Shown here in pieces: positions 28,785 to 56,814 of a stretch of 64,000 bases of DNA (the first letter of the stretch is position 1; every line of letters begins with the position of its first letter). The notes under the pieces are model-generated. The model saw nothing but the letters and a program-made list of their open reading frames with translations, did not search any database and was not told the DNA's origin. Source of the stretch: Liolophura sinensis (taxonomy: Eukaryota; Mollusca; Polyplacophora; Chitonida; Chitonidae); the NCBI RefSeq assembly GCF_032854445.1, contig NC_088297.1:27397915-27461914 (forward strand), given 5' to 3'. The position numbers and the translations under genes are program-made.

Positions 28785-28815
28785 AAAAAACACGCGTCAG
28801 AGACGCGTGTTTTTT
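28785..28815. repeat. Perfect 13-bp hairpin near the hAT-2 right end
   Basis: AAAAAACACGCGT, a CAGAG loop, then ACGCGTGTTTTTT. It sits 18 bp inside the right end and may be a subterminal transposase-binding or fold-back structure. Confidence 0.8.
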
Positions 28816-31674: not shown

Positions 31675-34600
31675 ATGAAACATCATCAAAAAGCACAAGC
31701 ACTACGGGAGGAGTTTGAGACGCTCCTAGGTGTGCGGCCGAAGTACCCACGGTCCCGCATTGCCTTGGAAGAACTGCAGGGGATCCTCGACAGGTATAAA
31801 ACGGCTGTGGCTGAGTTGAAGCGGCTGCAAGACAGCAAGAACTCCCGAAGTAACGAGGAGTTGAAGCAAGACGTCAGTAACGAGGAGTTAAAGCAAGACG
31901 TTAAGAACCTCATCAGTAACGAGGAATTGGATGAATTGCTAGGCGAAAAGAAACTAGAATTCATTAACACCGACAGGGTTATAAGGAATCTCCTCCGGGT
32001 CTGGCAGATGAATGTACCCGAAGGCGTTTGGACGGACTCACTAGCCTTCTTAGAAGAAGTTCGAGCTATTATTCGCCAGAAGCTAGAAGAAGAGATCCTA
32101 GCACTCAACGGGGTTCAATTCCAACTAGGCCTCAGGGTTCAGTTGCAAAAGAGCAACGCCGATGGCAGTGAAGAGTATACCAGCCCAGTACTACACAACA
32201 AACAGGAGGCCCTCTTAGAGGCCGGTGACATTGACGGGGCTCTAGAAAAGGCCTTCCCCACCATCCAGGAGGTGCTAGAAAAATGGACACAGCGAGAGTC
32301 AGGGTGGGTTGTCAATAGCGTGCAAACACTCTGGCTTGACATTGCAAGGTATCAGCCACTGAGAGGCGGGTCCTACATCCCCCTACCCGCAGCTGTGAGT
32401 AACAAGAAAGCAGTCATCGGTGTGAAGAACAAAGACGACGACTGCCTCAGATGGGCACTCCGGTCTACCTTATTTCCAGCCGCCGGGCACCCTCAGAGAC
32501 CAACAAAGTACCCCACCAATGATGGTCTTGACTTTGGGGGGATCGACACCCCCACGCCCATCTCTCAGATCCCTAAAGTGGAGTAAAAGAACGACCTCGC
32601 CATCAACGTGTTCGGGTGGGACAAGGGCGTGATCGTGCACCGCCTCAGCAAGAAGCCCGGCGACATGCCGCGAATCAATCTGCTGCTGATTGATCATGCA
32701 GAAATGTGTCAACCAGTCAATGCCGTTTTAACTCTGTTGAGGTTGACGGCCGCTGCCAAACTCCTCACCTCGTTTTTTGACAGCATGATATCGGCTAAGC
32801 ATCTGCGGGAGAATATTGACTATAAGTATTTTGTTCAGTCTTAACATTGAAGGCAGTTATACTGAATTTAGTGTCTTTAAAGATATAACTGTGAAGAAAC
32901 TACTGGTTAACAAAACTTCGCCCTGTTTGTGCAGAAAAAAATGTATCTTTGTATGGCAGAGGAATAGTTTGTTTTCTGTCGGACACTCACACGAGGGCCG
33001 AATGACTGTTTACAAAAATGGCGTCCCGTGGGAAATGCATATCGAAAAGGTCCATTGCTCTTTGGGAGGACGATTTAAAATCAAATTTTGAATTTACGTT
33101 GGATGATGGAGGAGAGAAAGTAGTGGCTGTAACATGCAGTCTGCTTACATTTATGTTGTTATTTGAGTGCCTCTGTTCCTAATGAATAAATCTGTTGAAA
33201 TTTTCAACACTGGTTTTAACATCAAACTAAAAAACGCAACTTTGTATCATCAGTTAATAAGGTTTTCTCATATGTTTATCATATGCTGAATTATGGTATT
33301 CATTTATTGTGTCCTGTTGCCGGATTGTTAGATGGCACTTGTGACAAGGGCTCGCCATCAATAAAAGTCGATTTAGGTTAATTTGTCACCAAACCGTTTG
33401 TGTTTAAAGTTTTGATAAATCTAAATATTAAAAGAGTTAAACTGAATTTTAGTTGTTTCTTACATGTATATACATTTATTTTGAGAATTTTCGTTTTGAC
33501 TCTTTAGGCTCTCGCAAATGGCAGTAGTGGGAGTCCACCTGGACTCTCGCGTCTCCGCACGAAATTCTGACCCTGGAACGCCCCGTGGAATACAGAGGCC
33601 CTAATGCGACAGAACACTTCCTCAGAGCTCTCCAACAGGAGGAGCGGGAAATCAAAAATGTTCTAGCCAACCTTATACCCATGAATATGACTCCCCAGGA
33701 CTGGCAGGCCCACAACAATGTGTGTGAGAAGCCTCTAGGCGCCGATTCTGTGCGCGATCACTGCCATATCACCGGCAAGTACAGAGGCGCGGCCCATAAC
33801 GCATGCAACCTAAAGTTGCGGCTGGGTCCCAAGACAGCCATACCAGTAGTCTTCCACAACCTACGGGGCTACGACGGGCACCTCCTGATGCAGGCCATAA
33901 AGTAAGGCGGAGGGCCGCATCTCCTGCATCCCCAACAGCACGGAAAAGTACATCTCCTTCTCACTGGGGCAGCTCCACTTCATCGACAGCATTCAATTCT
34001 TACCGACTTCCCTTGACAACCTGGTAGAGGCCAACAAACCGGAGGCTTTCCACATCACAGCCCGGTATGAGCCCGCCGAAGAAAAATGAAAGGTACTCAT
34101 GCGTAAGGGTGTCTACCCCTGTGAGTATATGGACTCCTGGGAGCGCTTCGACGAGTCAAGCCTCCAACCCAAAGAGGCTTTCTACAGTAATCTCAAAGTC
34201 AGAGGCATTAGCGATGAAGACTACATCCACGCTCAACAGGTATGGAAGGTATTTGACTGCACCAATCTGGGAGACTACACAGGCCTTTACTGCCGCACAG
34301 ACGTGCTCCTGTAGGCCGATGTGTTTGAGGCCTTCCGGAAGACTTGTTTACGGCAGTATGGATTGGACCCTGCACACTACTTTACGAGCCCAGGTCTCTC
34401 GTGGGATGTGCTGTTCAAGAAGACCGGGGTAGAGCTGGAGCTGTTGACAGACTACAACCAACATCTCTTCATTGAGAAGGGGTTGCGCGGAGGTATCTTC
34501 ATGGTAAGTAAGCGATACGCCAAAGCCAATAATCCGCAGGTGGAGGGATACAACCCAGAAAGTCCAAACAGCTACATCCAATACCTAGACGCCAATACCT

Positions 34601-35752
34601 TCCAATGGGCGGCTTCCAGTGGGTAGATGACGCACGGCGTCTCGGCGAAACGATTGCTACCCACCCCCACGACAGTCCTTCAGGTTACATCCTCGAGGTT
34701 GACCTAGAGTATCCGGCCGGCCTACATAACTCACATAACTGGTGGTCCAGAAGGAGTGGATGTCAGACTATCAGCACGGCCTTCTCGGTAGGTCTACCGA
34801 GGTCGAAAAGCTGGTCCCCAACCTCCGCAACAAGGAACGGTACGTCCTGCACTACCGGAACCTACAGCTGTATCTATCTCTGGGAATGTTCACCGGGCCC
34901 TGAGATTTGCCCAGAGCCCTTGGATGGAACCCTATATCAGGATGAACACCAAGCTCCGAAAAACGGCAACGAGTAAATTCGAGAAGGACCTGTACAAGGT
35001 AATGAACAACTCGGTCTTCGGAAAAATCATGGAGAACCTTCGGAAGCGTGTGGATGTCAAGCTGGTATGCTCTGGAGAAGACGATAAGATCCGGCGCTTG
35101 ATAGCCAGCCCGAGCTTTGCACGGGCGAACATATTTGATGATGACCCCGTTTCAGATGCACAAGACCCGTCTAGTCCTAAACCGACCTATCTACGTGGGC
35201 ATGAGCATTCTAGATCTCTCCAAGCACCTGATGTATGACTTCTACTACAACCACATGAAGGCCCAGTACGGAGAGCGCTGCCAGCTCCTCTACGCTGACA
35301 CAAATAGTTTGCTACTCGAGATTAAGACTGAGGATGTTTATGGGGATATAGCTGAGAATGCAAACCTGTACGACACCTCAGATTACCCACAAGACCACCC
35401 CCTGCACAGCGTAGCAAATATGAAGGACAAGTGCGCGGGGCGGCAGATCGTCGAATGCATGAATCGTCTGCGCCCCAAGATGTACTCCATTCTGGAGGCA
35501 GGTGGAGCCAACATTAAGAAGGCCAAGGGCGTGAAAAAGGGAGTTGTGGAAAAGCGCACCCGCCATAAGCAGTACAAAGAGGCCCTCTTCGAGAAAAAGA
35601 TCTTCCAACGCAGTATGGACGTGCTGCGATCAGAGCGCCACCATATCTATGGGCAGCACCTGAATAAGGTCTCACTGTCCCCCTTCGATAGTAAGCGCTG
35701 GATAGCCGAAGATTGTGTCCACACTTTGGCTCACGGCCATGCGCCTCCTTGA
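31675..35752 (+). pseudogene. Protein-primed DNA polymerase B of Polinton copy 1, decayed
   Basis: A DNA polymerase of the Polinton/Maverick family that would copy the element from a terminal protein. The N-terminal part (31,675-32,586) is coiled-coil and hydrophilic, then a polymerase-associated region; it ends at a TAA (32,584) where the other copy has a sense codon. Then ~870 bp of foreign sequence replaces about 400 bp. Downstream pieces show an HNH/endonuclease-VII-like DHCHITGKYRG segment, LLMQAI, NSVFGK and the palm motif. Breaks include a shift near 33,900, a TAG at 34,312, a 31-bp deletion near 34,597 and further shifts. Palm motif C reads Y-A-D-T-N-S (35,291-35,308), so one catalytic Asp is changed. 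The C-terminal 211 codons to 35,752 are open. Confidence 0.85.
32691..33570. other. Foreign sequence replacing part of the copy-1 polymerase
   Basis: Both flanks match the other polymerase copy closely (to about 32,690, and again from CGCCCCGTGGAATACAGAGG near 33,574), but this stretch does not. It encodes short open segments on the plus strand, such as MASRGKCISKRSIALWEDD at 33,020, and a hydrophobic-rich segment ending DYKYFVQS. It may be a fragment of another transposon. No TIR or duplication seen. Confidence 0.55.
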
Positions 35753-35979: not shown

Positions 35980-36333
35980 CTCTCCAGGCTGATAGAGATA
36001 ACGAGCGCCAACACCCTCAGGGATCTTCCGCTCATTAAGTACCAGCGCAGTGTCTTAGCCGCCGAGGCCCTTGATTCGGCCATGCTTACGGCCGGTTTGG
36101 GACTAGGGGTTGCAGGTGTGGGACTACTCACAACAATAGTTGCAGCCCCTGCTGTCTTGGCTATGGAAGCTGCGGCCATAGCTTGCGGTGTCTTAAATAC
36201 CGCCGTAAAATTCGTTAGCCGCCGACTTCACGCAAAGGCCAAGAAACATAACGATATACGGCTGAGGCTAAACTTAACAGCATCTGTGCGCAGGTATCTA
36301 CGGCATTATCTGATGGTGTTATTTCGGACGTAG
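35938..36333 (+). pseudogene. Polinton membrane-protein-like ORF, truncated
   Basis: Open from a stop at 35,935; the first ATG is at 36,082. The product has an amphipathic N-terminal part (ALQLSRLIEITSANTLRD), a Gly/Ala-rich hydrophobic segment (LGLGVAGVGLLTTIVAAP), a second one, and a basic stretch (SRRLHAKAKKH). The frame is lost after ~36,230 compared with the trend of the sequence. Possibly a capsid-associated or membrane protein; its family function is unknown to me. Confidence 0.4.
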
Positions 36334-36518
36334 AGTACACGCAAGTCGTTCAGGAACACCAGAACTACTCTGATCCAAAGCAGGAGACAGTGCTAAGTCT
36401 CGTAAGACATTCACCGCCGTAGAGATCGATGAAAGCTCGAAAAACAGCTTATAGATCTCGGCCGAAAACTAGCTCGGCAAGAGCTGAAAAACGCTCTTTC
36501 CGAATGATGTTCTGGGCG

Positions 36519-36767
36519 TTAGGGTTGTTGCCTCATTAGCTCGGGCAACAGCCGGTTTTCATAATACTGCCGGATTGGCTCGGGGTGATCCACCGAAGCG
36601 CACACGTCGTTGGTGAAGAGCTTCAGCACGAGCAGCCAGCCCGCATTGACGCGTCTGTCTTCAAACATGCTGTGGGTGACTTCTTTGGAGCCTCGCAAGT
36701 CTTGCACTGTGCCGACTAACTTCGCCCAAATAGGCTGGCTGGTCGTTTCCATCGCGGGAGATCCCAT
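36519..36767 (-). CDS. Polinton accessory ORF, copy 1, homologue of the 60.3-kb exon
   Basis: The 82-residue product contains FEDRRVNAGWLLVLKLFTND and PIRQYYENRLLPELM. The outer element's exon at 60,281-60,572 has the matching FADGRVNEGRLQVLRAYTED and PIRAYYVEIVRPTLM. Both lie next to a TIR and point the same way relative to it, so this is a conserved Polinton gene. Here the 5' exon of the longer gene is missing. Confidence 0.6.
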   Translation of the reverse strand: MGSPAMETTSQPIWAKLVGTVQDLRGSKEVTHSMFEDRRVNAGWLLVLKLFTNDVCASVDHPEPIRQYYENRLLPELMRQQP

Positions 36768-36915
36768 GATTATTCATTGTATTCGCTGTATACCTAATAA
36801 GAAATTTCGATAGCGGCCAGACCCTCCGCTGGGGGGGCTGGGGGCCTCTATTTTGTTCTGGGGAGGGCCCAGGGGGAGGGTGTGCCAGAACTCCTATTCT
36901 GTATACTACTCGTTC

Positions 36916-37349
36916 AGCGAATTTCAGGGGGAATAACTCTGGGCCGCTTGTTGACACGACTATAGACGGGGAACAGCCTTTGGCACTGAATGGCTAATCG
37001 AAGCCCACCTGTTTAAGTTGGTATAACCGAACACTCACTGAAGTATAAACACATGCCATATTTCGTACTATGAATGGTTCAATTTTCGATACATGAGACC
37101 CCTAGGTGAACTGCTTTCGCAGTGGCACAGCGAGTGCTACATAACCGTATGCCTCCAAGTTATCAGCTTATTTTTTTACCTATATGTTGCCTTACACGAT
37201 TCTGCGGTCATATTCTCTGGATTTGGTGCCTTTTCTATGTAAATTGGAATAAAACAATAATTATTGGACATCATACATGGCGCTGTATTGCTCTTCTAAG
37301 CCCACTCACGTGTGTGGTAAAGTCCAGTTTTCCTACTTTTATTTTGCAG
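36916..37349. other. Sequence between nested Polinton and the RNA-binding protein gene
   Basis: AGTATAAACACATGCCATAT at 37,041 is a diverged direct repeat of AGTATAAAGACATGCCGTAT at 24,480, so sequence on either side of copy 1 is related. The promoter and 5' UTR exon of the downstream gene should lie here or further left. The acceptor TATTTTGCAG just before 37,350 shows that at least one 5' non-coding exon exists upstream. Confidence 0.4.
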
Positions 37350-37376
37350 CAGTGAGACCAGCAACAAGGTGTAAGT

Positions 37377-40300
37377 ATGGCATCCGCGGAGAAGGCTTTG
37401 CCGTATCGTGTGACCTGGGCGCAAAACGAAGCCTTGCTGAAACTTATGGAAAGAACAGGATACACCATACGGCATAAAAAAGGGCAAAGAAAGTACGGCG
37501 GTCCACCTCCCGACTGGGAAAGCCCGCCTCCTTTAAAGGGTTGCGAACTTTACATCGGAGGTATTCCAAGAGACTGTTACGAAGACGAGCTTGTTCCAGT
37601 ATTTGAGAAGATAGGGAAGATTTACGAACTGAAACTCATAATGAGCTACCTCTCTGGATCCCATAGAGGATATGGATTTGTTATATACACTAACGAAGAA
37701 CACGCGAATCAAGCGGTAAAGGAGCTTAACAACTACGAAATTCGTAAAGGCCAGCTCTTGGGTGTTTGCAAATCTGCCGTAAGTCATGTAATTTCCACTA
37801 TAGAAGCTTTATTGGTTGTCTCTTCGTTGCAAATTAAAACACATTTAATTGCCAATGTAGACAGCACCAGACGTCGGAAATATTGGTTGGTTAGTTGTAA
37901 AATTCACGAGTATGTATCACAGTCCAAACAAATTTGACCAAATTTGAATTTATGTAAGCCGTTATTTGAAAAGTTATAATTGAACTAAAGTTTTTTGTAT
38001 GAAAGGGGTATTTTGTGAGGGTGGATATGTGTAAAATGTTGCGTAACTTCTTGAAATTTCTTATCGTCTGCTCTTTCATTTTCTGTCACGAGAAGGTGGT
38101 GTGTGCGCGCGCGCGCGCAACATTTCTTACAACAAGTGATTTCTTTTGTGTGGGAGGCTGCGGTAATAATTAATATGGTCACTTATGGCTTGAAAGCACT
38201 GATGCATCGTCATCTTGTCCATTAATATTGTGCATATTTGTATGGCTGGAATAATATTTATGTTGTGCATATTTGTATTACAGAGGAGAGTTTTGCACGT
38301 GGGGAACCTTACGTCGAGAATTACAGAAGACAAAATTAGAGAGCTGTGCAGTCAAGTTGTGGGAAGAGACAATGTTGTGGAAAGAGTAAAGAAGATAAGA
38401 GGTTTTGCATTCATTCATTTTAGAGACAGAGATGATGCTATTATGGCCATGACTAAACTTAATGGTGAGAAAAATTATTTATTTTGGAGTTGTGTTGATT
38501 GGTTTTGGATAAATACAAAATGCATTAATGGAAGTATATTTCTTCTATCGGTAGGCGAATGTAGTTTTTGTGTGCATTTATAGAGTGTGATATATTTCCA
38601 TTCTGATAGTTCTGTTTCTGATAAGTAAAAGTTCATTTTCGTTTGTCAGTCGCATGTGGTCGCATTTTTTTAACTAGTTTTTCACTTGATTGATGTTTAC
38701 AGAAAATTACATGATAGAATATCCACCAACATCTAAGGGAGAGTATTTGGAAAACATGCTAACTCGAGTAATTAAGATGAAACAGTGAATAACTGACACA
38801 TCGCTTGCCTATAGGATGTTTAATACTCCAACTACGTACAGGAAGTGGCTCACAATTATGGGACAGACTTACATATATTTACAGAAGAGCACATACAGTA
38901 TAAATTCACACTTCAAAGCATAAGGTGTGGGCATTGTCTAGAATATTTGTTTGGATAAATTTCTGTATAAATTGGATTTTATGTTAGCTTATTATTAACT
39001 TAATATCATCCCTCATTCAACATGGATGGGAAGGTCTGCCAGCAACCTGTGAATGGTTGTGGGTTTCCACCAGGCTCTGCCTGGTTTCCTCATGCTATAA
39101 TGCTGGTCACCGTCGTATAAGTGAAATATTCTTGAGTACAGCGTAAAAACGCCAATCAATAAATCATTCAGCATGAAAAAAAGCTGTTGAACATTAAATG
39201 ATCAAATGTTTAAAAGAGGGGAGTTGTTTCAACAGTTACATGTAATAGGCTGAATATTGAACCCAAGCTCCCAGGACCATTTTGCCAGGAATTTTTTGAG
39301 AAAATAAGAAGTTTTCTTGGGAAAAACTCTAGGTAGACTGTATCTGGAACACTTTTTAACTGATGTGTAGCATTTGTACTACGTCCTCATTCTTTCAAGA
39401 AATAAAACTAAAGGAAGATCAAGGTGAGAAGGCATTATATAATAAGTCATATATATTTCTCTCTAGGAATGAATGTTGAAGGCACTTGCATTGAGGTTGT
39501 ATGGGCAAAAGGAAGAAATCAGGTAAGAAATGATTTGGTCAATGTTACTGCCACATCGTGAAAGTCATCTCAAATGTGTAATTCAGGACAGCCCAGCGAT
39601 CATCCTCTCCCATAGGTTAAGTTTGTCTGTAACATAGTATGTGAAGTAAACTGTGTTAAGTTGGAAGGGTTCAAATGTTTTCATATTGAGAGTTTGTGGA
39701 AGGTATTTGGTCGGGAACCGGGACCTGTCCACATTTTTCCCCCATCAGCTTTCTTTCACCATTGTAAACTCATCTGTCGTGTATGTGTGAAGTAAGCTTT
39801 GCATATAAACACCAAATTATTTATATATATTTATATCTGGTAAATAATTGAATTTTACTACTGATGAAAATTCTTTATTGCAGGCTAATCAGGACTGTCA
39901 CTTGGATGAGGTTGATAGAGCATACAACAGAGGCCAGGAAGCATTGGAATCTTGGAAGCAGAGAGTATCATATGTCAGGGTAAGAGTTCCTCATATGGTA
40001 GGACATGGGGTTCTGTTATGTCAGGGTAAGAGTTCCTCCTATGTTAAGGTAGGGGGTTCTCATATATCTGTAGCGGGTTTTCATATATGTGGGTAGGAGG
40101 TTCTCATATGTCAGGGTAAGAGTTCCTCATATGTCAGGGTAGTGGGCTCTGTTATATCAGGGTAAGAGTTCCTCGTATGTCAGGGTAGTTGGCTCTTTTA
40201 TGTCAGGGTAAGAGTTCCTCATATGTTAAGGTAGGGGGTTCTCATATATCTGGGTAGGAGGTTCTCATATGTCAGGGTAAGAGTTCCTCATATGTCAGGG

Positions 40301-43300
40301 TAGTGGGCTCTGTTATGTCAGGGTAAGAGTTCCTCATATGTTAAGGTAGGGGGTTCTCATATATCTGGGTAGGAGGTTCTCATATGTCAGGGTAAGAGTT
40401 CCTCATATGTCAGGGTAGTGGGCTCTGTTATATCAGGGTAAGAGTTCCTCGTATGTCAGGGTAGTGGGCTCTGTTATGTCAGGGTAAGAGTTCCTCGTAT
40501 GTTAAGGTAGGGGGTTCTCGTATACCTGGGTAGGGGGTTCCCATATGTCAGGGTAAGAGTTCCTCATATGTTAGGGTAAGGGGTTCTCATATGTCAGCAT
40601 AAGAGTTTCTGGTATGTAAGCATAGGGGTTTCAGATCCGGTATGCAAGGGTAGGGAATGCCACTGATGGCTTATGATGTTGAAATTTTCCAGTGTGTAGT
40701 AATATTGAAGGCTCATATGTGTAGTATAGTGCCTTAGCCTTTCGGGCAGTTGATTAAAAAAATGATTAGAACTACATGCTAAAAATCTTTTATAATAACT
40801 TTTTTAATCGGTGTATAATACTATATTCAAGAATTGTCACATTATTCCACCACAATCAGGTTTATGGATGGAGGAAATTGGAGTAAGACCTGGATTTGTA
40901 CATGAATTTATAGGTCAAGTGGAAGCAAGTCAGCTGTTCAACCGTTTGAGCGAATCTGCTTTTATGCATGCTTTGGTTGTATGACAAGTGTACTTGATAC
41001 TGTGACAAATTTTTCAGGGCTATGGCTATGATTTTGATCCTAGTTACTCTCCACCATCGTTTTACAACCCGATGTCTCCACCACCCGCAAGGTAAGAACT
41101 ATTTTGGCCTGAAATCCACAACTCTGTTCACCCAATATAAGAATACAGATGAGAATCCAGCACAGCAGATGATCTTGCAGTCAGAAAAGAGTTGTTTTCT
41201 TGGAATTTTTATAAAAAATCGGTTAGCTTAGAACAATTTTTGAAGAATTAGGAGCATAGGTTGTCATATTCCACCGTGTGTGTCCAGTTTGTCTTTTTAA
41301 TATCAGGGTTCTCAGAACTGTCAGATGCTCCGTCATTTGTGTGCTTCAGACCAGGGACAGGATATTTGTCTTTGGTTTTAAATCATTTCAGTTATGATCA
41401 TCTAAGATGAAATCTTAGATAACCTAAGATTATATTTTACCTTATGATTTGTCTGTAATAACTGTAACTGTAAATAAGCATAGGTAAGTGGGTTTTACAA
41501 AGTACAGTATTGTAGCTCTCCTGCTGATATGTTAATGGATACAGAGTACAGAGTGAGAACTAGAAAAATGACACGGGCAAGTCTACTTTGGAAACTGAAA
41601 TCCAAAATGAGGTAATGACGGATTTCAGTTGGAAGGTGCTTCACAGGGAGCAGAAATATTTGCAAGACTGTGCAAGGCATAGCTTTATTGAAAACAGGCG
41701 ATTTTATTGAATGGTAGGGGCTTGCTTTTTGCCAAGAATTAATATGAACTTCGTACCACCTGTGACCTATATTCTTTAATTGTCACTCTGTAGCTTTCCA
41801 TTCATCAGCATACATGTAGGAAAGGTACACTACCATATTTAGTGGTTTTGCCATTGTGGCTGATAGAGTCATTTGACGTGAAAGAAGTTGCATTTATGTG
41901 TTATCCATGCGATGTCCTCAAAAAAAAAAAACGTTCTATGAACTTCTTACATGTAAGTATACAAAGAAGCATTAGGTTTCATCAACCGAACCTTAATAGC
42001 TCAATATATTTGATTTTATGTGAACATCTCAGTAGGAAAAGCAGGAAGAAGAAACTTTAAGAAGGCTCAGTCACATAATTTTTACCATGAAATAGCTTGA
42101 ATATTTGTGCTTTTTGTACTGTTAGCAGGGGGTTGGCAGAGCAAGGTCCCATGGGCATCAGAAGCCCTGTGGGAGGCCAAGGGATGATGAGTGGGTGGGG
42201 CTTTAGGAAACATCCAGCAGAGGTGTGTATCGTTGTCAATGCAGAAGGTTTCTGGTCCCATATCCCATTAAAAAGTTGCGCATTGCAACATATTCTGAAG
42301 CATGCTTAAAAGGACTATGCAGTCATAAAGTCTACAATCTGCCTACGCCGTACTAAAAGACATGAACCGATTGTGCAATTAACCAGAAGGTGAGTTAGTT
42401 CAGTTTCGTTGAAGATGGGTGTTTGTTTAAACTTTGAAGTAACAGGTAACATACTTAGAAACTAATTCTTATCTAATATTTCCTATACATGTAATGAGTT
42501 TTGAATTAAATTTCGTTAATCAGGTGTGTTAATAGCCAAAAAAAAATTGGCTGTCTTGTTATCATTGAAAGTTGTCATAATGCAAGGCTCTGTGTTTAAC
42601 CTTTGACCATGATTTTGTTTTGTGGAAGAATTTTTGTTTTACTAATTACCTTTAATTTATAGCCTGATTGCCCGAGTGAGGCTTCAGTAAATCAAGAGTG
42701 TCAAAAAGTGTATGCATGTAACGATGTTCACTATAGGTGCTCGATGACCTTTGCCAGAAGAATGGATGGGGAAGTCCTGTATACGAGCTTCAGTCTCCCA
42801 TGGTAGGGGATGGAAGTGGTGCCCAACAGCTCTTTTTGTACAAGGTACTACCATAGGTTTCAACAAAATGTTGATAAGAAACTTGTTTGAAGAGATAAGA
42901 ATCAAGTTTTTTTGCTGGAATGTAACTTTTTTTATACAATTAATCATGTCCATGTGTACCAGAAAGAATAAGAAGTAAATTATCTTATAAAAATAATTGA
43001 TCTGAAGTAAATCGAAAAAAAAGAATTTCGTGGTTGTGATTTATACATGTATAAGTGTCATGTAGAAGTTGATGTTAGACATTTACATTGGTAATCTATG
43101 GTAAAGTACATTTGTCTTTCAGATCACCATACCAGCTCTCGGTACTCGGTTTCCAAATCCTAACCCATTTACCCCAATTAAACTGTGTTCTACTGTTGAG
43201 GGGGCAAAGGTTTTTGCAGCAGAGTACACTTTGATGCAGTTAGGTGTGCCTCTTGAAGGTAAAGTTAGTGTCCAGAGAAAAAAGGAAAGACAAACAAATG

Positions 43301-44927
43301 CTTCACAGCCCAAGCTCTACCCTTTTTCCCAAATGATACATCATTTTATAAGTGGCCATTGTATGCTTTGATTTCTTCTTTCTTTCCTGAACCAGCTTTG
43401 CTTCTTGAAAGTTAATTTAAGAAAGTAAGAGCTATCTCATTTTACATGTTTGTAACAGTATATGAAAAGTATAAAAAAACTTCTTTACTGGATAATATGT
43501 AATAAGACATGCTGCAAAAACTTAATTGCTGAAAATTACTATTCATAGCTGAGCTGTTTGCCGTTATGTAAGCACTTGTGACATGCATCAGGTATTCTGT
43601 GTCTTAGCAACTCGTTTGAAGAATGAATGGTTAAATACTCACATACATACATGCATGCGGTTACCCAAGTATATTTTGAATGAATATTAGCCAGGAAAGT
43701 AACTATTTGCATAACTAGAATTGTCAGAGTTTATTGTTTTGTGCTGCAGCCCTAGAGTACATTGGCCCACCATATCCTTACACCCAGCCGAGCTATGTCG
43801 CCCACCCCGACCCACCTTCCAACAGATCATGTGAAAAGCCATGGATGGACCTAAGGTACATGTATATTGATCAGGCACTTCAATCTCTAAGACAATGTAT
43901 AACTTAGATTAGGGCCTGGACACTAAACACCTGCCTAAACACGGCTCGCGTGAGAAAGGATTGTATTATAATGTGCCATAATAAAGACCGCATATTGACC
44001 GGTCATGTTTTGTGCTATTAATTGAATGGCTGAAGTATTTGCGTCTTATAATATTGTTATTGATCGCCAAAAGTTTTCAAAACCAAGGTGCGTAAAAGCG
44101 GCCTTGCAGGAAAGTCAAAGCGCCTGAGCGATATCAGTGAGTCGCCAAACTTGGGGTTTAAGAAGCAAATTCGGAGCGAAGCTGTTGTTTCTTCACACAC
44201 AGAAAAGTTATCATTTTGTCCAAGTATGTAGCGAATAGTTTTGTTTGGTCGATTACATCTTGTGATCCCTGATCATCTGAACTACTGTGTGTAACTGACA
44301 GCCGTGTACATGGGCTTGACAGGCAAACATGACTTTTTCACATGGGTTTAATTCACCCGGCACGGAGAGTCCTGTTTCACCAGATTGCTTCTATCTCCTG
44401 AAGTCTCAAAATGGCCGCCGTCGTATAAGTGAAATATTCTTGAGTACAGCGTAAAACACCAATCAAATAAATAAATAAATCTCAGAATGGTTTGGATATA
44501 ATGTTCTAGCCATTCTCTTGGTCCGCAGTTGTTTTGCTATGTGGTTTGAATCTTAAAGCACTGATGATAAGGCTCAAACATGTTTAGTAGGCCTATGGAG
44601 CGAAACATTTAGGACAGTTTTAACAAGGGGAATAAATCTGGGGGTGTAGTATCATGGTATAATTAGTTACTTCCCTTTGAATTTTATGGAGCAAAACATA
44701 GGAATGTCAGAGCTTTAATTCAATCAGGCGTTACTGTATCAATGTAAAATGTTGAACATCTGGACATTGCTTTGGTTACTTAACCAGCTTCAATTTATGT
44801 TCTTTCTTATTTCAGTTTAAACATGGCAACTTCAAGATATCACTTGTTCGATCAGCCAGAAGAAATTGACTTCCTAGCCGTGTTCCTTGGAGCAGGAGGC
44901 GGAACCTGTGAGGACAATGGAAAATAA
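37377..44927 (+). CDS. RNA-binding protein of the A1CF/RBM46/RBM47/DND1 family lacking RRM2
   Basis: Ten coding exons join in frame: 37377-37778, 38284-38464, 39467-39522, 39884-39979, 41018-41091, 42126-42222, 42737-42844, 43123-43258, 43750-43855 and 44816-44927 (455 codons plus TAA). All have GT-AG sites. Residues ~10-50 form the family's N-terminal unit ([25 protein letters not shown]). RRM1 is ~55-133 (RNP2 LYIGGI, RNP1 RGYGFVIY). The next exon begins directly with an RRM3-type domain, ~135-213 ([21 protein letters not shown]). A DND1-type double-stranded RNA-binding domain is ~303-384 ([33 protein letters not shown]). Relatives bind mRNA in editing, meiosis and germ-cell control. The usual RRM2 is absent, with no trace in the 505-bp intron. 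The start at 37,377 follows a 5' UTR exon boundary. Confidence 0.9.
39020..39165 (+). repeat. SINE-1 copy in an intron of the RNA-binding gene
   Basis: Body and tail present: CCAGGCTCTGCCTGGTTTCC, ATAATGCTGGTCACCGTCGT, CTTGAGTACAGCGTAAAAAC. It shows that this intron has been exposed to the host's SINEs. Confidence 0.8.
39968..40650. repeat. Minisatellite built from the exon-4 splice donor
   Basis: The true junction reads TATGTCAGG|GTAAGAGTTCCTC. The intron then repeats TCAGGGTAAGAGTTCCTC about ten more times, separated by TATGTCAGGGTAGTGGGCTC, TTAAGGTAGGGGGTTCTC and similar units, for ~650 bp. Each copy keeps a near-consensus 5' splice site. Confidence 0.92.
42122..42128 (+). promoter_or_regulatory. 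Tandem (NAGNAG-type) splice acceptor of exon 6
   Basis: The intron ends ...GTACTGTTAGCAG|GGGG. Both TAG and CAG leave the frame intact, so the protein could gain or lose one residue. Typical NAGNAG arrangement; use of each site is not known. Confidence 0.6.
43856..44000 (+). terminator. Possible alternative 3' end of the RNA-binding gene
   Basis: If the exon-9 donor is not used, the frame continues for about 19 codons to a TAG near 43,913, and AATAAA follows at about 43,979. The diverged inverted copy at 23,872-24,150 ends just after the same AATAAA. This suggests an alternative terminal exon, but is not proof. Confidence 0.4.
44385..44485 (+). repeat. SINE-1 tail in the last intron of the RNA-binding gene
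   Basis: Contains AATGGCCGCCGTCGTATAAG, TTCTTGAGTACAGCGTAAAA and a (AAAT)n end. Confidence 0.8.
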
Positions 44928-45408
44928 AAGAATCAAGAGAAAGGTCAATCCTACAAAGCACACCTTTTGTGTGTTATGCAAGAATAATGGCGAGATGCTG
45001 TCGGTGTATGGTATGCACGTTTTGCAGGATGACTCCGGTTGTGTGACATGTCCAATCCTTTGGCGTTACACCTGTCCTATATGTGGGGCAGTCGGGGATA
45101 ACGCACACACCGTCAAATACTGTCCCAACAACGTGAACCGAGAAAGGCAACTAAGGAATTACTTGAAACAAAGCTTCTTGGAATTAAAAGACGCAGTTCC
45201 AGCGCTCATACAACAGGAAAGGGTACCAAGAGTGGTTATATTGAAAAAAGCCACAGACCACATTCATGAATTAACTACGAAGCAAAATGTTATGTTGACA
45301 GAACTGCAAATACAGAGAGAGCGAATTAGCAGCTTATTGGAAAGCTGCGGTTACTACAGTGTTGAAAGCTTGTACATTACCTGTCGTCGTGCCCTTGTGT
45401 TCATGTGA
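44917..45408 (+). CDS. Nanos zinc finger fused to Myc-type bHLH-leucine zipper
   Basis: An uninterrupted 163-codon ORF. Residues 18-69 are a complete Nanos domain with both CCHC sites: C18, C21, H34, C45 and C53, C56, H64, C69, with RYTCPICGAVGDNAHTVKYC. Nanos fingers bind RNA with Pumilio and recruit deadenylase in germ cells. Residues 74-143 match the C-terminus of Myc: ERQLRN, LKQSFLELKD, VPRVVILKKAT, then heptads with a/d positions I116, L119, Q123, M126, L130, Q133, I137, L140. In the DNA-contact region E76, R77 and R80 are kept, but the usual His is Asn72 and one Arg is Leu79; the upstream basic block is missing, so E-box binding may be lost while dimerisation stays possible. The ATG at 44,917 is chosen because an in-frame TAG lies at 44,875; it overlaps the upstream gene's stop by 11 nt. 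Nanos genes are often intronless. I know of no such fusion. Confidence 0.88.
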   Translation: MENKRIKRKVNPTKHTFCVLCKNNGEMLSVYGMHVLQDDSGCVTCPILWRYTCPICGAVGDNAHTVKYCPNNVNRERQLRNYLKQSFLELKDAVPALIQQERVPRVVILKKATDHIHELTTKQNVMLTELQIQRERISSLLESCGYYSVESLYITCRRALVFM

Positions 45409-46033
45409 TTGTCATTGCAAGACGGAGAGGCGTGAAGCGATCACAGTGTGATACTTGGTTACCATTATTACCATGCCTTGCTACCCAGCTTACCACAAGC
45501 GGTAGGGGTTTTACCACTAACAGGACTGACTGATTGTTTCATTATGTTGTGAACTCGTTTTGATTTTCATTTTGCAGAGGTATATATTTCCATTATTGAA
45601 GAGAAGTTGTTCTTTATGGTGCAATTTCATACATGCCCTACTTGGGTATTAGTGCTAACATTAACTGTATGGGACTTCGCTGCTCGCATTGATTTAACTG
45701 GAACTCTTTATCATCAAGCATTTGAAAGTTGTTGTTTTTGTTTGTTTCCATTTTCTTGCTGTTAAAAGATTCATCTTTTTTTTTACTATTTTTAATCCAT
45801 TTAAGAAAACAGCTTGCTTGACGTTTTCATTTTGCAAGAAGACTAGTTTTTGTGTAGCATTTTATTTTTTTTTCTTACGACAAACAGTGGCTGTGATTTT
45901 TTTGAGTGCGAGACCCATGTACTGTGTACAGTTGACGTTTGTGTTGGAAAACCATTGTTGTATTTTAAATGGCGTGCTGTGAGCATTTCATTCCATTTTT
46001 GTCTCATGTTGAGGGTCTGTCCCTGTGAGTGTA
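45409..46033. other. Probable 3' UTR of the Nanos-Myc ORF
   Basis: T-rich sequence without exon signals. No AATAAA close to the stop was noticed; the nearest clear ones are near 46,380 (inside the MITE) and at 47,697. Confidence 0.4.
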
Positions 46034-46039
46034 CATATC

Positions 46040-46547
46040 CAGACAGCGAAATTTGGCGGCGAACGAAACCGTCGGTCGCGCAACGGTTACGTGCGGTTCA
46101 ATTTGGCTAACCGGAAAATCGGTTAGGCCAACTGTCCAACGAGAACGTCCTTAGAGTCAGTGTGCATTAGGTAACTACAGATAAACTGGACTGAACAGCT
46201 TTCATAATCACAACGCGGCCAGTATGGCAACGCGTCTAAAAATAGAAACATCGATTTCAGCCACAGCCAGCTGCCTGTGCTGGTCACATGGAAATGTAAT
46301 CATTCATATATGCTTTACAGGCTTTGAGATAATACTCAAATTATTTATTTTGACTTATCTTTTCACGATCACGCAAGTAAATAAAACAAGGTTACCTTTT
46401 CATGTACATGTAGTTTAACTGCTACTCCAGCCCAAATTAGTCGAGTCTACCGTACAGATTGATGGAACCCTTACGGGACCTCACCGGCTGCGTTCTGATT
46501 TAGAGCACAGGCCTGTGACGTCAAGGTCTCTCCTGGCCCTGTAGCGA

Positions 46548-46599
<52 letters not shown>

Positions 46600-47082
46600 C
46601 TGTGGTAAGACTCCCACCACGTGCGTTGGAAACTGCGTTAATTATCAGTAATCAGGGATACCAAACTCGCTCCCCAATACCGTAATGACACTTACTGGAA
46701 GTACTTAATGTTGGACAGGGCATATTGCAAACATATAAGCCTGTATAACGGAATTTCACGTAAAAATGTGCCACAGGAGTCAAGTACCAACCAGGCAACA
46801 CACAACGTTGAAACATCGTGTGAGTGTAAAATTTCTCTTTCTTTTGTTCACCAACCTTACGGTATGAGCTGCTAGATATAGAAAAGAAAAACAAACATAA
46901 CATTGAGCTGAATACTTTTATTAATGATCCAGAATGATGCCTGAAACATAAACCACGTAAACAATTAGCGTAACCGATCGGGTTGATAAACATATGTGGC
47001 GTAACCGAATGATCGGTTAGGCGAGGCGGAAATGACGTAACCAATTTCTGGGTTTCGCCGGCAGGCCAAATTTCGCTGCCTG
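46040..47082. mobile_element. Non-autonomous TIR element (MITE-like), 1,043 bp
   Basis: Left end CAGACAGCGAAATTTGGC, right end GCCAAATTTCGCTGCCTG, flanked by CATATC on both sides (46,034-46,039 and 47,083-47,088). Subterminal sequence repeats GGTTACG/CGTAACC and GATCGGTTAGG motifs. An internal (AT)n tract is present; no transposase. The superfamily is not clear; a 6-bp duplication would fit Polinton-like or some hAT elements. Confidence 0.82.
46546..46598. repeat. (AT)n microsatellite
   Basis: About 50 bp of alternating TA, inside the MITE-like element. Confidence 0.97.
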
Positions 47083-47283
47083 CATATCTGTGCATTTATC
47101 ACCATTACTGGCCTCTGATTACAGATGTTTAGGAAACCACATCTGTACTAATAGAGCCAGACATTTTGACACCTGCTTTGACCTGTCTTTTCAAAGTCTA
47201 ATTAGCTGTTCAGTGCAACCATTTATCATTTATTTTCAATATCATGTATTTATCATTTACACGTATGGGTTCTGTTAGGTTCC

Positions 47284-47695
47284 TCATAGCAAGTACTGCA
47301 AGTTTCTGTTGAAGATATTAGTATGTTTCGGTATATCCTTTCGTATTTCAGTATGTTGGTATGTTTCGGTATATCCTTTCGTATTTCAGATTTTTGATAG
47401 AAAAGATAGACTTGCTCCCCATAGCAAGTACTGCAAGTTTCTGTTGAAGATATTAGTATGTTTCGGTATATCCTTTCGTATTTCAGATTTTTGATAGAAA
47501 AGATAGACTTGCTCCCCATAGCAAGTACTGCAAGTTTCTGTTGAAGATATTAGTATGTTTCGGTATATCCTTTCGTATTTCAGATTTTTGATAGAAAAGA
47601 TAGACTTGCTCCCCATAGCAAGTACTGCAAGTTTCTGTTGAAGATATTAGTATGTTTCAGTATATCCTTTCGTATTTCAGATTTTTGATAGAAAA
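47284..47695. repeat. ~98-bp tandem repeat, about 4 copies
   Basis: Units contain CATAGCAAGTACTGCAAGTT, AGTATGTTTCGGTATATCC and GATTTTTGATAGAAAAGATA. The first unit is shortened and partly duplicated. The last unit runs into AATAAA and an A-tract. Confidence 0.9.
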
Positions 47696-47696
47696 G

Positions 47697-47726
47697 AATA
47701 AAACATTGAAAAAAAAAAAAAAAGAA
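47697..47726 (+). terminator. AATAAA followed by a 15-A tract
   Basis: AATAAAACATTG is followed by 15 A, then GAAATC. It could be the polyadenylation region of the Nanos-Myc transcript, or the end of an inserted cDNA-like repeat, since a genomic A-run right after AATAAA is typical of retroposition. Confidence 0.45.
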
Positions 47727-48420
47727 ATCTTTAATATAACCTGGTAGTTGTTTTCTCCTTCATGGTCATTTGGTTGTCTTGTATATATGTGTTAAGATTA
47801 GTTGATAAAGAATAATTGGATTTAACCGTTTAAGAAATGGCTGTTACATATCTTGCTTAAATATGTGGATGTTGGTGAAAATACAGATGCTGAAAATATG
47901 TGCGAAATACCATCACATTGATCTCCTCCAAGTTTCTTATAAGCTTCGAGATTTTCTGATCCAAGAGTAGACAACTGGGTCGTCAGTGGACCCTTGAGTT
48001 CATTCCAGCCTATTATCCAACCTTTTGACGTAGCCGGTCAGCCAGCCTGACAAACCACATACTACAGTACACAAGGCAATGCCCTACTCTGCTCTGTTCT
48101 ACTCAGTGTTGACGCGAACGGAGACAGAGCGCGGACTCAACGACACCCCAGACTCGGCTCCTCAAAACGACAAGTTCGCAACGCTAGCTATATTACTGGG
48201 GTTTTTGATCGAGAGTGCACTTTTGGCGGGGTGTTACTAAAAACCATTTCTTTTATGGCCATATAAGCTCTATTTGTGCTTCGACCGAGATTTATACTTC
48301 TGATCTGGAAATTCACAGAATTGTGCTGGGCTGAAATTTGCACTTTCTTATCGTACCTTTCTGGGACCGATTCTCCGCCTTACTGTACCGGGTGCTTTAT
48401 CTGCTTAACAATTCGGGGAA
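47727..48420. other. Spacer between the cargo region and the integrase
   Basis: No exon or repeat recognised. No copy of the outer TIR was found here, so I see no sign of a separate Polinton end between the cargo and the integrase. Confidence 0.45.
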
Positions 48421-49130
48421 TCAGCTTCCGGCCATAGTAAGATTTTCGATTTTCTGACAAAGTAAAATAAACAAATTTCGGTCTAGCAATTGTTCCCCGT
48501 TCAAATCCTCCAGTGTGTACACAGCAGGCTGTCGAGGGTGGGAACGAACAATGCGGAACATTTCCGTGCTCCAATTCGGGAGGTATGATTTTTCGAATTT
48601 CCCTTTCACTTTACTGATACGCACGAGATCACCGGCCCGATAACGGTGGACCGAGCGTTTGGTTGTGGGTGAACCGTACAAGACTTGCCGGACTTCCTTC
48701 TGGTTCTGGGGGGTGACGTCGATAGGGGCTCGTCGTATGCTTCGGTGGTAGGCTTGATTGTAACCGCGGACCAGCGCCGGTGAGGCGTCCAGGTATCGCC
48801 GAGTGTTGTTGTAAGACCTGTTTGTCTGCGGTTGAATCACCTGCGAGACTATCTTACGTTGTCGGGTGGACACGTGACTGGCTTTTGGGGAAACAAGTGT
48901 TAAATATATGCTGGACAAAGAACGCAAATGCTCTGGTGGGTTTTCACACGTGCCACAGCCTGAGAATTTATTATGTTAGACAGAGGTAATCAGTATAAAA
49001 GTAGGAGTATCTGTAAATATGTTCCTTTCCCTTCCTTCCTTCCTTCCGAGTTTGGATAGTGTTCCCGCTGAGGGGCTCACAAGGAGAAGCAGCCTAGAGG
49101 GTAACGTCTGGCAGTCAAGACGGTACAGCA

Positions 49131-52145: not shown

Positions 52146-55100
52146 ATGAAGCATCATCAAAAAACGCAAGCACTACGGGAGGAGTTTGAGACGCTCCTAG
52201 GTGTGCGGCCCAAGTACCCACGGTCCCGCATTGCCTTGGAAGAACTGCAGGGGATCCTCTACAGGTATAAAACGGCTGTGGCTGAGTTGAAGCGGCTGCA
52301 AGACAGCAAGAACTCCCGAAGTAACGAGGAGTTGAAGTAAGACGTCAAGAACCCCCTCAGTAACGAGGAGTTCAAGCAAGACGTCAAGAACCTCCTCAGT
52401 AACGAGGAGTTGGATGAATTGCTAGGTGAAAAGAAATTAGAATTCATTAACACCGGCCGGGCTATAAGGAATCTCCTCCGGGCCTGGCAGATGGGCGTAC
52501 CCGAAGGCATTTGGACGGACCCAGTAGCCTTCTTAGAAGAAATTCGAGCTATTATTCGCCAGAAGCTAGAAGAAGAGATCCTAGCACTCAACAGGGTTCA
52601 ATTCCAACTAGGCCTCAGGGTTCAGTTGCGAAAGGACAACGCCGATGGCAATGAAGAGTTTACCAGCCCAGTACTTCACAACAAACAGGAGGCCCTCTTA
52701 GAGGCCGGTGACATTGACGGGGCTCTAGAAAAGGCCTTCCTCACCATCCAGGAGGTGCTAGAAACATGGACACAGCGAGGGTCAGGGTGGATTGTCAATA
52801 GCGTGCAAACACTCTGGCTTGACATTGCAAGGTATCAGCCACTGAGCCACAAAGACGACGACTGCCTCCGATGGGCACTCCGGTCTGCCTTATTTCCAGC
52901 CGCCGGGCACCCTCAGAGACCAACAAAGTACCCCACCAATGATGGTCTTGACTTTGGGGGGATCGACACCCCCACGCCCATCTCTCAGATCCCTAAAGTG
53001 GAGGAAAAGAACGACCTCGCCATCAACGTGTTCGGGTGGGACAAGGGCGTGATCGTGCACAGCCTCAGCAAGAAGCCCGGCGACATGCCGCGAATCAATC
53101 TGCTGCTGATTGGGAAGGCAGGCAATTTCTATTATACGTGGATAAAAGACCTCAACCGTCTCCTGTTCCAAGAGAGTAAGGCACACCATTGCAAACACTT
53201 CTGCGAGCGCTGCCTACACGGTTACACAAGGGAGGATCTTCTCAAGGCGCATAAGCCGGAATGCTGAGGGATTGGCCAGACGGCGGTGAGGGTGGAAATC
53301 CCCCAGGAGGGGGAAAATAAGTTCACCTTTCAGAACCACCACAAATAGCTACCGGCTCCGTTCATCATATATGCCGACTTATATACGAGGCTCTGAACAG
53401 AAAGGTTGAAGGCCCGCCGCCGTCACCTACAGAGAGCAGCACTCAAAAGACTCAGCACCACGAGCCCTGCAGTTACTGCTATGTTGTGGTGCGTTGCGAC
53501 GGCCGCACAAAACGCCCCGTGGAATACAGAGGCCCTAACGCGACGGAACACTTCCTCAGAGCTCTCCAACAGGAGGAGCGGGAAATCAAAAATGTTCTAG
53601 CCAACCCTATAGCCATGAATATGACTCCCCAGGACTGGCAGACCCACAACAACGCCGCAACCTGCCACGTGTGTGAGAAGCCTCTAGGCGCCGATTCTGT
53701 GCGCGATCACTGCCATATCACCGGCAAGTACAGAGGCGCGGCCCATAACGCATGCAACCTAAGGTTGCGGCTGGGTCCCAAGACAGCCATACCAGTAGTC
53801 TTCCACAACCTACGGGGCTACGACGGGCACCTCCTGATGCAAGCCATAAGTAAGGCGGAGGGCCGCATCTCCTGCATCCCCAACAACACGGAAAAGTACA
53901 TCTCCTTCTCGCTGGGGCAGCTCCGCTTCATCGACAGCGTTCTTGCCGACTTCCCTTGACAATCTGGTAGAGGCCAACAAACCTGAGGCTTTCCGGTATG
54001 AACCCGCCGAAGAAAAACGAAAGCTACTCATGCGCAAGGGTGTCTACCCCTGTGAGTATATGGACTCCTGGGAGCGCTTCGACGAGTCAAGCCTCCCACC
54101 CAAAGAGGGTTTCTACAGTAAGCTCAAAGTCAGAGGCATTAGCGATGAGGACTACATCCACGCTCAACAGGTAGGTAGGTATTGACTACACCAATCTGGG
54201 AGACTACACAGACCTTTACTGCCGCAAAGACGTGCTCCTGTTGGCCGATGTGTTTGAGGCCTTCCGGAAGACTTGTTTACGGCAGTATGGATTGGACCCT
54301 GCACACTACTTTACGAGCCCAGGTCTCTTGTTGGATGCGCTGTTCGGGGTAGAGCTGGAGCTGTTGACAGACTACGACCAACATCTCTTCGTTGACAAGG
54401 GGTTGCGCGGAGGTATCTCCATGGTAAGTAAGCGATACGCCAAAGCCAATAATCCGCAGGTGGAGGGATACAACCCAGAAAGTCCAAACAGCTACATCCA
54501 ATACCTAGACGCCAATAATGTATATGGCTGGGCTATAAGTCAGTTCCTTCCAACGGGCGTCTTCCAGTGGGTAGATGACGCGCGGCGTCTCGGCGAAACG
54601 ATTGCTACCCACCCTCACGACAGTCCTTCCGGTTACATCCTCGAGGTCGACCTAGAGTATCCGGCCGGCCTACATAACGCACATAACAGTTACCCATTAG
54701 CCCCGGAGCGTCTGGTGGTCCAGAAGGAGTGGATGTCAGACTATCAGCACGGCCTTCTCGGTAGGTCTACCGAGGTCGAAAAGCTGGTCCCCAACCTCCG
54801 CAACAAGGAACGGTACGTCCTGCACTACCGGAACCTACAGCTGTATCTATCTCTGGGAATACGCCTGACCAAGGTTCACCGGGCCCTGAGATTCGCCCAG
54901 AGCCCTTGGATGGAACCTTATATCAGGATGAACACCGAGCTCCGAAAAACGGCCGCGAGTAAATTCGAGAACCTGTACAAGCTAATGAACAACTCGGTCT
55001 TCGGAAAAACCATGGAGAACCTTCGAAAGCGGGTGGGCGTCAAGCTGGTACGCTCTGGAGAAGACGATAAGATCCGGCGCTTGATAGCCAGCCCGAGCTT

Positions 55101-55536
55101 CGCACGGGCGAACATATTTGATGATGACCTCGCAGCGATTCAGATGCTCACGACCCGTCTAGTCCTAAACCGACCTATCTACGTGGGCATGAGCATTCTA
55201 GATCTCTCCAAGCACCTGATGTACGACTTCTACTACAACCACATGAAGGCCCAGTACGGAGAGCGATGCCAGCTCCTCTACACTTACACGGATAGTCTGC
55301 TACTCGAGATTCAGACTGAGGATGTTTATAGGGATATAGCTGAGAATGCAAACCTGTACGACACCTCAGATTACCCACAAGACCACCCCCTGCACAGCGT
55401 AGCAAATATGAAGGTCTTGGGGAAAATGAAGGACGACTGCGTGGGGCGGCAGATCACCGAATACATTGGTCTGCGCCCCAAGATGTGCTCCATTCTGGAT
55501 GTGCAGCATTGCGTCCATAATCACATAGAGATATAG
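52146..55536 (+). pseudogene. Protein-primed DNA polymerase B of the outer Polinton, decayed and 3'-truncated
   Basis: Same family as copy 1 and about 95% identical. Open blocks: 52,146-52,340 (stopped by TAA at 52,338), 52,410-53,267, 53,486-53,959, 53,943-54,185 and 54,232-55,536. Visible parts are the coiled-coil leader, a C2H2-like finger (HFCERCLHGYTREDL, then H and C), a DHCHITGKYRG HNH-like segment, exonuclease/thumb regions, NSVFGK and palm motif C. That motif reads Y-T-Y-T-D-S (55,279-55,296), with the first catalytic Asp changed to Tyr. The gene is cut at 55,490, where it joins a duplicate of the capsid gene's 3' end, so roughly the last 100 codons seen in copy 1 are missing. Confidence 0.87.
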
Positions 55537-55639
55537 TCTGCCCACAGATAATCGCGCAGTGGGCGTCATCAATAAAACGCGTTAACGAATCAACCATTCT
55601 GGATGTGCAGCATTGCGTCCATAATCACATAGAGATATA
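55490..55639. repeat. 46-bp direct duplication at the polymerase/capsid junction
   Basis: CCATTCTGGATGTGCAGCAT through TCACATAGAGATATA occurs at 55,490-55,535 and 55,594-55,639. The second copy belongs to the capsid-like gene (minus strand); the first is joined to the truncated polymerase at CATTCTGGA, which both partners share. Confidence 0.9.
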
Positions 55640-56772
55640 CGTTCAACACGCCGGGATCTTCTCTTTCTTTTGTCACCTGTATCATAATCTCTTCTCTGGC
55701 GTTCTGAACGCGCCTCCCACTGCCATGCAGCTCGTCATCGTCGCTTGGCCGAAGGTCAAGCCAGAAGGCGTGCTTGTGGGTCAAGAACTCTTTATGGGAG
55801 ACATCTGCCAGGCCTAAGTCTTTTACGACCCTGGCCACGTCAGGGTCCCGCTTCTTATGGGGTGAGCTGGCGAAGAACCTCTGGACCTCGCCCCATTGCT
55901 GGTACGCCCGCATGCCCTGGCTGTACAGCTGATTGGGGATCCCTTCTATTGTGACTTCTACTTTGGTGATCTTCGGGTTGTAGAAGGATTCCGACCTCCT
56001 CCCCCACGGGGTTCTTTTAGCCTCGAACAGCATGAGGATGCCCTTCATTGCTCTCTCGAGTGTTCAGGTTTATGTTCCAGAGAGTATCAGACTTGTCCTT
56101 AACAAACTTTCGGTGGCGGAGGACGCAATCATACAGAACAGAGACGCCCCCTGCAAACTGGGTGCGGATCTGTCTAGCGAGCTCCTCATCGGTGACCATA
56201 TCGAACTCCAGGCTGATGTTGTCGATGGTGTAAGTCGTGGTAGAATGGCATGTGGCCATCTAGAAGCTCAATGTCTAGCGGGATGTGGAACCGGCTGCCA
56301 AAGGCACGAGCGATGGCTTTTTCTCCAGCATTGTCGTCACTTGCGTCCTCCGCTCCGACTCGAAGTTTAAGCATGTTTTCGCTGCCGATGCCTTGGTAGG
56401 CCGCATTCCTCCGTTCGTTTTTGGTCAGCCATAAGTCGTCGTAGCAATGAAACACATCAGAGTCGTCGATGGACATTACCTCATTCCCGCTTATTCTGAT
56501 CGTGGTTTTCTTGACTACTGCGCGTCCGAGATTCCCGACCACTGTGGCGTTCGGGTCGGATGAATTGATCGTGATCGAGAAGGCCAAGCGCACGGTGCCG
56601 GGCACAATGACGTCATTTGGGCCGAGGTTGGGGAAGCGGACCAAGAGTTGTTGATTCTTGTCGATCGTACTCGGGTTGTTGGTGACGACTAAGGACTGCC
56701 GTACACCTTGTACCCCCCGAGGCTTACGGAGTGTTCTGAAGGGGTTTAGCTTGCGTCCGTATGCATCCATTG
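55590..56772 (-). pseudogene. Capsid-like gene of the outer Polinton, two frameshifts
   Basis: Three minus-strand frames in order: 56,797-56,186, 56,259-56,017 and 56,048-55,590. The first encodes MDAYGRKLNPFRTLRKPRG, a beta-rich region (VPGTVRLAFSITINSSD, TTIRISGNEVMSID) and GSRFHIPLDIELLDGHMPF. The rest has ISLEFDMVTDEELARQI, SFYNPKITKVEVTIEGIPN and YSQGMRAYQQW. Beta-rich composition, size (~400 residues) and place next to the polymerase fit a double-jelly-roll major capsid protein of Polinton/adintovirus type, but I infer this from style, not from a certain motif. The two frame changes near 56,240 and 56,040 make it inactive. Confidence 0.6.
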
Positions 56773-56814
56773 TGTGTACTGAAGGTATACCTTGCAATGT
56801 TCAATACGAGGATT

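Follow-up and report, generated by a model that had tools for sequence, protein, structure and literature searches.

Duplicated (unprocessed) pseudogenes and chimeric duplicate genes form a known general class. The two genes of concern here are nanos, whose product recruits CCR4-NOT through its N-terminal region, and Myc. In the chiton Liolophura sinensis parts of both are joined in a single open reading frame (ORF), which lies within a window of 64,000 nucleotides (C3:27397915-27461914), the whole stretch of DNA that was analysed. If this ORF is translated then its product would be, to our knowledge, the first single chain to link RNA binding of the Nanos type with Myc/Max dimerisation. The features of the locus and of its copies are collected in Table 1. 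The genome searched for relatives comprises 609,464,459 bases in 632 contigs. The assembly was published as 609.5 Mb in 632 scaffolds under the name L. japonica (PMC11068029, available part); L. sinensis is mentioned in a correction published later (PMC12441733, available part), which appears to reassign the assembly.

Table 1. The Nanos-Myc locus and related places in the genome (window positions unless a contig is named; protein identities are to L001).
Feature	Location	Strand	Description
A1CF/RBM46-like gene	37377..44927	+	ten phase-consistent exons spliced by script, 454 aa
A1CF-like exons 1-5	37377-37778, 38284-38464, 39467-39522, 39884-39979, 41018-41091	+	
A1CF-like exons 6-10	42129-42222, 42737-42844, 43123-43258, 43750-43855, 44816-44927	+	
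Homology to presumed Myc intron 1 (upstream of exon 2)	43995..44815	+	blocks within C7:26246489-26247190
Myc exon-2 start	44816..44903	+	acceptor, ATG at 44823; 2-bp deletion relative to older copies
Nanos-derived insert	44904..45142	+	239 bp, 91.6% to canonical nanos C1:24540148-24540386 (minus strand); finger, without N-terminal half
Nanos-Myc ORF	44917..45408	+	163 aa; Met start inside nanos-derived piece; context ACAATGG
Overlap of Nanos-Myc start and A1CF-like stop TAA (44925-44927)	44917..44927	+	11 nt
Myc-derived 3' part	45142..45901	+	second half of basic region, HLH, zipper, 3' flank; 83.9% to C7:26249002-26249806
Further Myc 3'-flank blocks	45915..48032	+	reach C7:26251690; broken by non-homologous stretches
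L001	window copy	+	chimera, reference for identities
L002	C3		99% protein identity; chimera
L003	C3		98% protein identity; chimera
L004	C3		73%, residues 1-140; older chimera; ATT for Myc ATG, two zinc cysteines lost
L005	C3		53%, stops; older chimera; ATT for Myc ATG, two zinc cysteines lost, frameshifted
L006	C3		77%; older chimera; internal deletions, parts of finger and second join lost
L007	C3		93%, residues 1-67; older chimera; homology ends before second join
L008	C1		canonical nanos

A reading of the DNA made from the sequence alone had placed a Nanos zinc finger and a Myc helix-loop-helix (HLH) in one frame. Both identifications are right. The frame is open and, in Pfam, the product matches the complete zf-nanos profile (E=6.9e-22; residues 18-71, profile positions 1-54 of 54) and all but the first six positions of HLH (E=1.0e-9; residues 74-120, profile positions 7-53 of 53). 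A sequence search of the PDB matched the first half to Nanos (5.9e-17) and the second half to c-Myc (8.2e-11), which scored better than Max (6.7e-6). Each of the eight Cys/His ligand positions of canonical nanos, in two zinc knuckles, is kept. The ORF thus contains a Myc-like HLH sequence, and two such domain matches in one frame far exceed chance.

Neither parent is represented in full. The N-terminal half of Nanos is absent, the insert starting at PVGTM of canonical nanos, and the Myc boxes and transactivation region (within C7:26247281-26249001) are missing from the copy. The basic region of Myc is incomplete: its first half is replaced by nanos and the remainder carries an Arg-to-Leu change, which had been noticed earlier and is real in the alignment of copies. 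The accompanying claim of Asn in place of His was mistaken, there being no changed Myc residue at that point; CPNNVN is nanos sequence and Myc begins at ERQLRN. The zipper recognised in the same reading is indeed Myc-derived, but its end is scrambled by a 1-bp deletion (LKRKLQLLQC in Myc versus SSLLESCGYYS in the window copy).

Among database proteins of about 90-285 aa there were 12 matches, 11 to Nanos and one to HLH, and none carried both domains. P0002 is a nanos (80%), and P0011 is 90% identical to the chiton Myc. Between 286 and 910 aa a composite query of 520 aa passed only P0014 from 477 candidates; no Myc was returned, so that the negative value of the search in this range is limited. 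The titles and opening lines of abstracts covered by a literature search held no Nanos-Myc protein, in agreement with the earlier statement that none has been described.

Donor and recipient are both present in the same assembly. Alignment to canonical Myc (C7) and canonical nanos (C1) places the joins at about window positions 44903/44904 and 45142; between them 1,721 bp of Myc (C7:26247281-26249001) are missing and 239 bp of nanos stand instead, the last base of the insert being common to the nanos and Myc blocks. The frame is kept at both joins (Myc GA + nanos A-CCT; nanos CCA-G + Myc AA-AGG), and in older copies the Myc N-terminal LEQEAE or FEHEAE continues as nanos PVGTMENKR or a close variant. 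In the window copy the Myc ATG no longer shares the frame of nanos, owing to the 2-bp deletion in the exon-2 start.

Homology to Myc starts only about 0.8 kb upstream of exon 2 (C7:26246373 in L006), and the first exon and promoter of Myc were therefore probably not included. The sequence upstream of the acceptor, presumably intron 1, is kept, which means that the gene was copied as DNA and not from mRNA; an mRNA-derived retrocopy is ruled out on the same ground. A copy made at the DNA level, together with the non-coding flanks of a gene held elsewhere, is what is expected of a duplicated pseudogene. A short unrelated repeat (about 44412-44480) lies inside the upstream homology, extra copies of one segment (47351-47700) interrupt the 3'-flank blocks, and poly(A)-like AATAAA motifs occur at 46380 and 47697. 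Capture by a transposon was also considered and rejected: a dispersed repeat with at least 62 matches (from the best 40 of 150 candidates) adjoins the Myc unit just upstream of L006 and is absent from the window copies.

Nanos-like sequences occur at other places in this genome. A tandem array on the minus strand of C11 (17950666-18196940) holds at least 138 matches (138 of the best 150 of 183), many of which stay open, free of stops, for 201-218 codons; in 7 kb of this array (L033) the repeat distance is mostly 1,575-1,677 bp and a motif search picked out three frames of 100-184 aa. A second, small cluster (C1:59619533-59646359) comprises four matches, each open for 222-232 codons, and two of these (L034) have a long N-terminal part. 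In the window itself, inspection by eye pointed to two stretches of frames resembling broken and more complete Polinton/Maverick-type elements (about 33585-35752 and 52410-59494) and to long frames resembling hAT-type or domesticated transposase genes (26381-28523 and 28723-30830).

A search of the genome with the 163 residues found the chimera at seven places, all on C3, among the best 150 of 183 candidates. With the Myc relative P0011 as query, six of the seven matches were chimeras and the seventh was another Myc, on C7. Junction 1 is present in all seven copies, and junction 2 is identical base for base in five. Since the chimera recurs at seven differently decayed places, it is not an assembly join, a possibility that the sequence-only reading had itself named as a refutation.

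Every copy carries a disabling change, whether in the Myc start, the zinc ligands, the frame or the zipper end, or by deletion or truncation. L006 and L007 retain a Myc ATG in the reading frame of nanos. L001-L003 have in common the 2-bp deletion, a TAG in frame ahead of the nanos piece and the 1-bp deletion at the zipper end; as a consequence of the first two, the ORF starts at a Met internal to nanos. These three copies sit, together with an A1CF-like gene, in a repeated block that is about 96-99% identical by segment and covers at least 36000-48809 of the window, a minimum extent because 36000 is the edge of the query. Its main part (36000-44392) is 98.8% identical to L003. This divergence is close to the published heterozygosity of 1.22-1.26% (PMC11068029, available part), which leaves the number of recent copies uncertain. 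No A1CF-like exons were found in the fetched flanks of the four older copies (L004-L007).

The rate of evolution of the coding part was estimated with a codon model (our own script; nanos and Myc parts, 133 codons, eight rows). For the L001-L003 clade with its stem omega was 1.44; neither 1 (p=0.63) nor 0.5 (p=0.14) was rejected, and both 0.3 (p=0.027) and 0.1 (p=2e-4) were. Over all fusion branches omega was 1.29, with 1 not rejected (p=0.33) and 0.5 rejected (p=1.3e-4); the canonical branch gave 0.47. Taken by part, all fusion branches gave 1.56 for nanos and 0.90 for Myc, where 0.5 was not rejected (p=0.10). The corresponding values for L001-L003 were 0.95 and 1.34, with 0.3 rejected in neither part (p=0.17 and 0.11); in the nanos part 0.1 was rejected. 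Parsimony assigned 12 nonsynonymous and 3 synonymous changes to the stem of L001-L003, an omega of about 1.03 when corrected for sites, and with 15 polarised changes power is low. Some pairwise ratios fell below 1 (L001-L007 nanos part 0.39; L001-canonical nanos 0.70; L001-Myc 0.89; L004-Myc 0.42), those against canonical genes including the constrained branch of the latter.

Divergence from Myc amounts to 23/177 in the HLH, 12/88 in the exon-2 piece and 84/965 in the non-coding flank (Fisher test of HLH versus non-coding, p=0.09); the coding part is not below the flank. An open frame and a full set of ligands are both kept in L001-L003; in each of the four older copies at least one of the two has been lost. 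In neutral simulations without indels (5,000 runs each) frame and ligands survived in 16.9% of runs with 20 changes, 6.4% with 30 and 2.8% with 41, so that such survival in a single lineage is uncommon without being compelling. Judged by the omega values, the coding part evolves about neutrally. Selective maintenance as a protein, a mark of membership among Nanos proteins, was not found for the whole ORF in L001-L003; a neutral rate combined with disabling changes, the mark of a duplicated pseudogene, was.

The chimera lies at the 3' end of the A1CF/RBM46-like gene, whose 454 residues match without a difference a protein listed in the database as 'APOBEC1 complementation factor-like isoform X2 [Liolophura sinensis]'. 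The last exon of this gene opens at the Myc exon-2 acceptor (44816), which the phase of exon 9 fits, and the Myc-upstream homology is joined to its intron 9 at 43995. The Myc-derived exon, entered by way of the exon-2 acceptor, forms the end of two protein models in the database, P0014 and P0026; P0026 reads this exon in another frame, and its tail was located in the L002 and L003 copies. Because the gene models splice into this acceptor, the chimera likely supplies, and appears to serve as, the terminal exon. It probably also provides the 3' UTR and poly(A) site, and RNA support behind the two models is plausible for annotation of this type. The ancestral end of the A1CF-like protein (FQQIM, stop) is present in window exon 9 but out of frame; of the 16 relatives from L. 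sinensis that were listed (P0014-P0029), nine have an FQQI[MLV] end in frame. The ATG of the Nanos-Myc ORF overlaps the A1CF-like stop by 11 nt in a context (ACAATGG at 44917) that we take to be good, and some re-initiation is therefore possible. A direct splice from the A1CF-like gene to the nanos frame was considered and set aside; judged by eye, it would depend on a weak acceptor at about 44912.

A1CF/RBM46-like genes are expanded in the chiton, with at least 16 L. sinensis sequences at the top of the match list; several of them (P0014-P0029) appear by eye to be without the middle RRM and to repeat one exon type. Intron 4 of the window gene (about 39968-40655) has internal repeats holding copies of the exon-4 splice donor ('ATGTCAGGGTAAGAGTTCCTC').

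The locus also shows that an open frame with two strong domain matches is no proof of a working protein. The sequence-only reading had suggested a regulator that tethers a partner to mRNA or acts as a dominant-negative Myc. In such a young functional chimera the 163 residues would be made by stop-start re-initiation on the A1CF-like mRNA (ATGGAAAATAA) or from a promoter of their own; the Nanos finger would bind RNA and the HLH would bind Max, sequestering it or tethering it to mRNA. The open frame, the eight ligands, the HLH match (E=1e-9) and a start context combined with overlap of the upstream stop speak in its favour, and values of omega from about 0.5 to above 1 are compatible with it. 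The sequence evidence nonetheless does not support it and we consider it improbable: omega is about 1 and low values are rejected for the whole ORF, the sister copies are broken, the end of the zipper is frameshifted, the basic region has Leu for Arg and the nanos part is without the N-terminal half of the canonical protein. Moreover, the ORF is cut off from the Myc ATG, and no such protein was found in the database in either size range (about 90-285 and 286-910 aa). A narrower version seems to us decidedly improbable: a young gene whose re-initiated product, with Nanos finger and Myc HLH, would bind both mRNA and Max in the gonad and would be evolving rapidly, at an omega of up to about 3. 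An independent intact gene was likewise considered for the ORF and set aside.

It is also conceivable that a single A1CF-Myc(N)-Nanos-Myc(C) fusion protein was once made, of which the window holds a split remnant. The Myc exon-2 start in frame with nanos in L006 and L007 and the phase of A1CF-like exon 9 would suit such a protein; however, no A1CF-like exons turned up in the flanks fetched around the older copies, and the three copies that are linked to A1CF all have the 2-bp deletion, which makes this reading highly unlikely. That an assembly or sequencing artefact joined nanos to Myc has a chance close to negligible, given seven places with junction 1 in common and decay that varies from 98-99% down to 53% protein identity, even though the long-read depth was modest (14x, according to the available part of PMC11068029).

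The explanation that we favour, with a probability of about 0.87, is that the Nanos-Myc locus is a chimeric, duplicated pseudogene that has been reused as a terminal exon. A partial duplicate of Myc arose at the DNA level and retained what lies before exon 2. Its interior lost 1,721 bp, reaching from early in exon 2 to midway through the basic region of exon 3, and has 239 bp of nanos in their place, in frame twice. The chimera was copied within one scaffold (C3) and is decaying as a family of pseudogenes; a copy cut at its 5' side, presumably at a later stage, landed behind the 3' end of an A1CF-like paralogue that has lost the frame of its own stop. Splicing of that gene into the old Myc exon-2 acceptor would have made the chimera a terminal exon in cis, adding a tail of 37 residues and probably also a 3' UTR and poly(A) site. 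The 163-aa ORF would be a still-open remnant, probably without function as a protein and at most weakly translated by re-initiation.

The locus offers a clear example of how a two-domain protein can originate: part of a duplicated transcription-factor gene was exchanged precisely and in frame, and donor, recipient and decayed sister copies are all present in one genome. Compared with canonical nanos of the same chiton (C1:24540149, an open frame of 274 codons), the finger is 81% identical in protein over residues 1-75 and 91.6% in DNA over 239 bp, but the window copy is finger only, the N-terminal half being missing. With canonical Myc (C7; exon 2 from 26247191, exon 3 to 26249224) it shares the upstream sequence, the exon-2 acceptor and start, the HLH and zipper and the 3' flank; it differs in that the middle and the first half of the basic region are swapped for nanos, and in the frameshifted end of the zipper. 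The A1CF-like gene has, like A1CF/RBM46/DND1-type proteins, two RRM_1 stretches and a DND1_DSRM; unlike them its last exon is Myc-derived, and by eye it is without the middle RRM that P0015 and P0023 carry. As in duplicated pseudogenes and chimeric duplicates in general, the Nanos-Myc locus was copied as DNA, has decayed and evolves at near-neutral rates; unlike duplicated pseudogenes in general, it joins two germline/growth regulators in frame at both ends.
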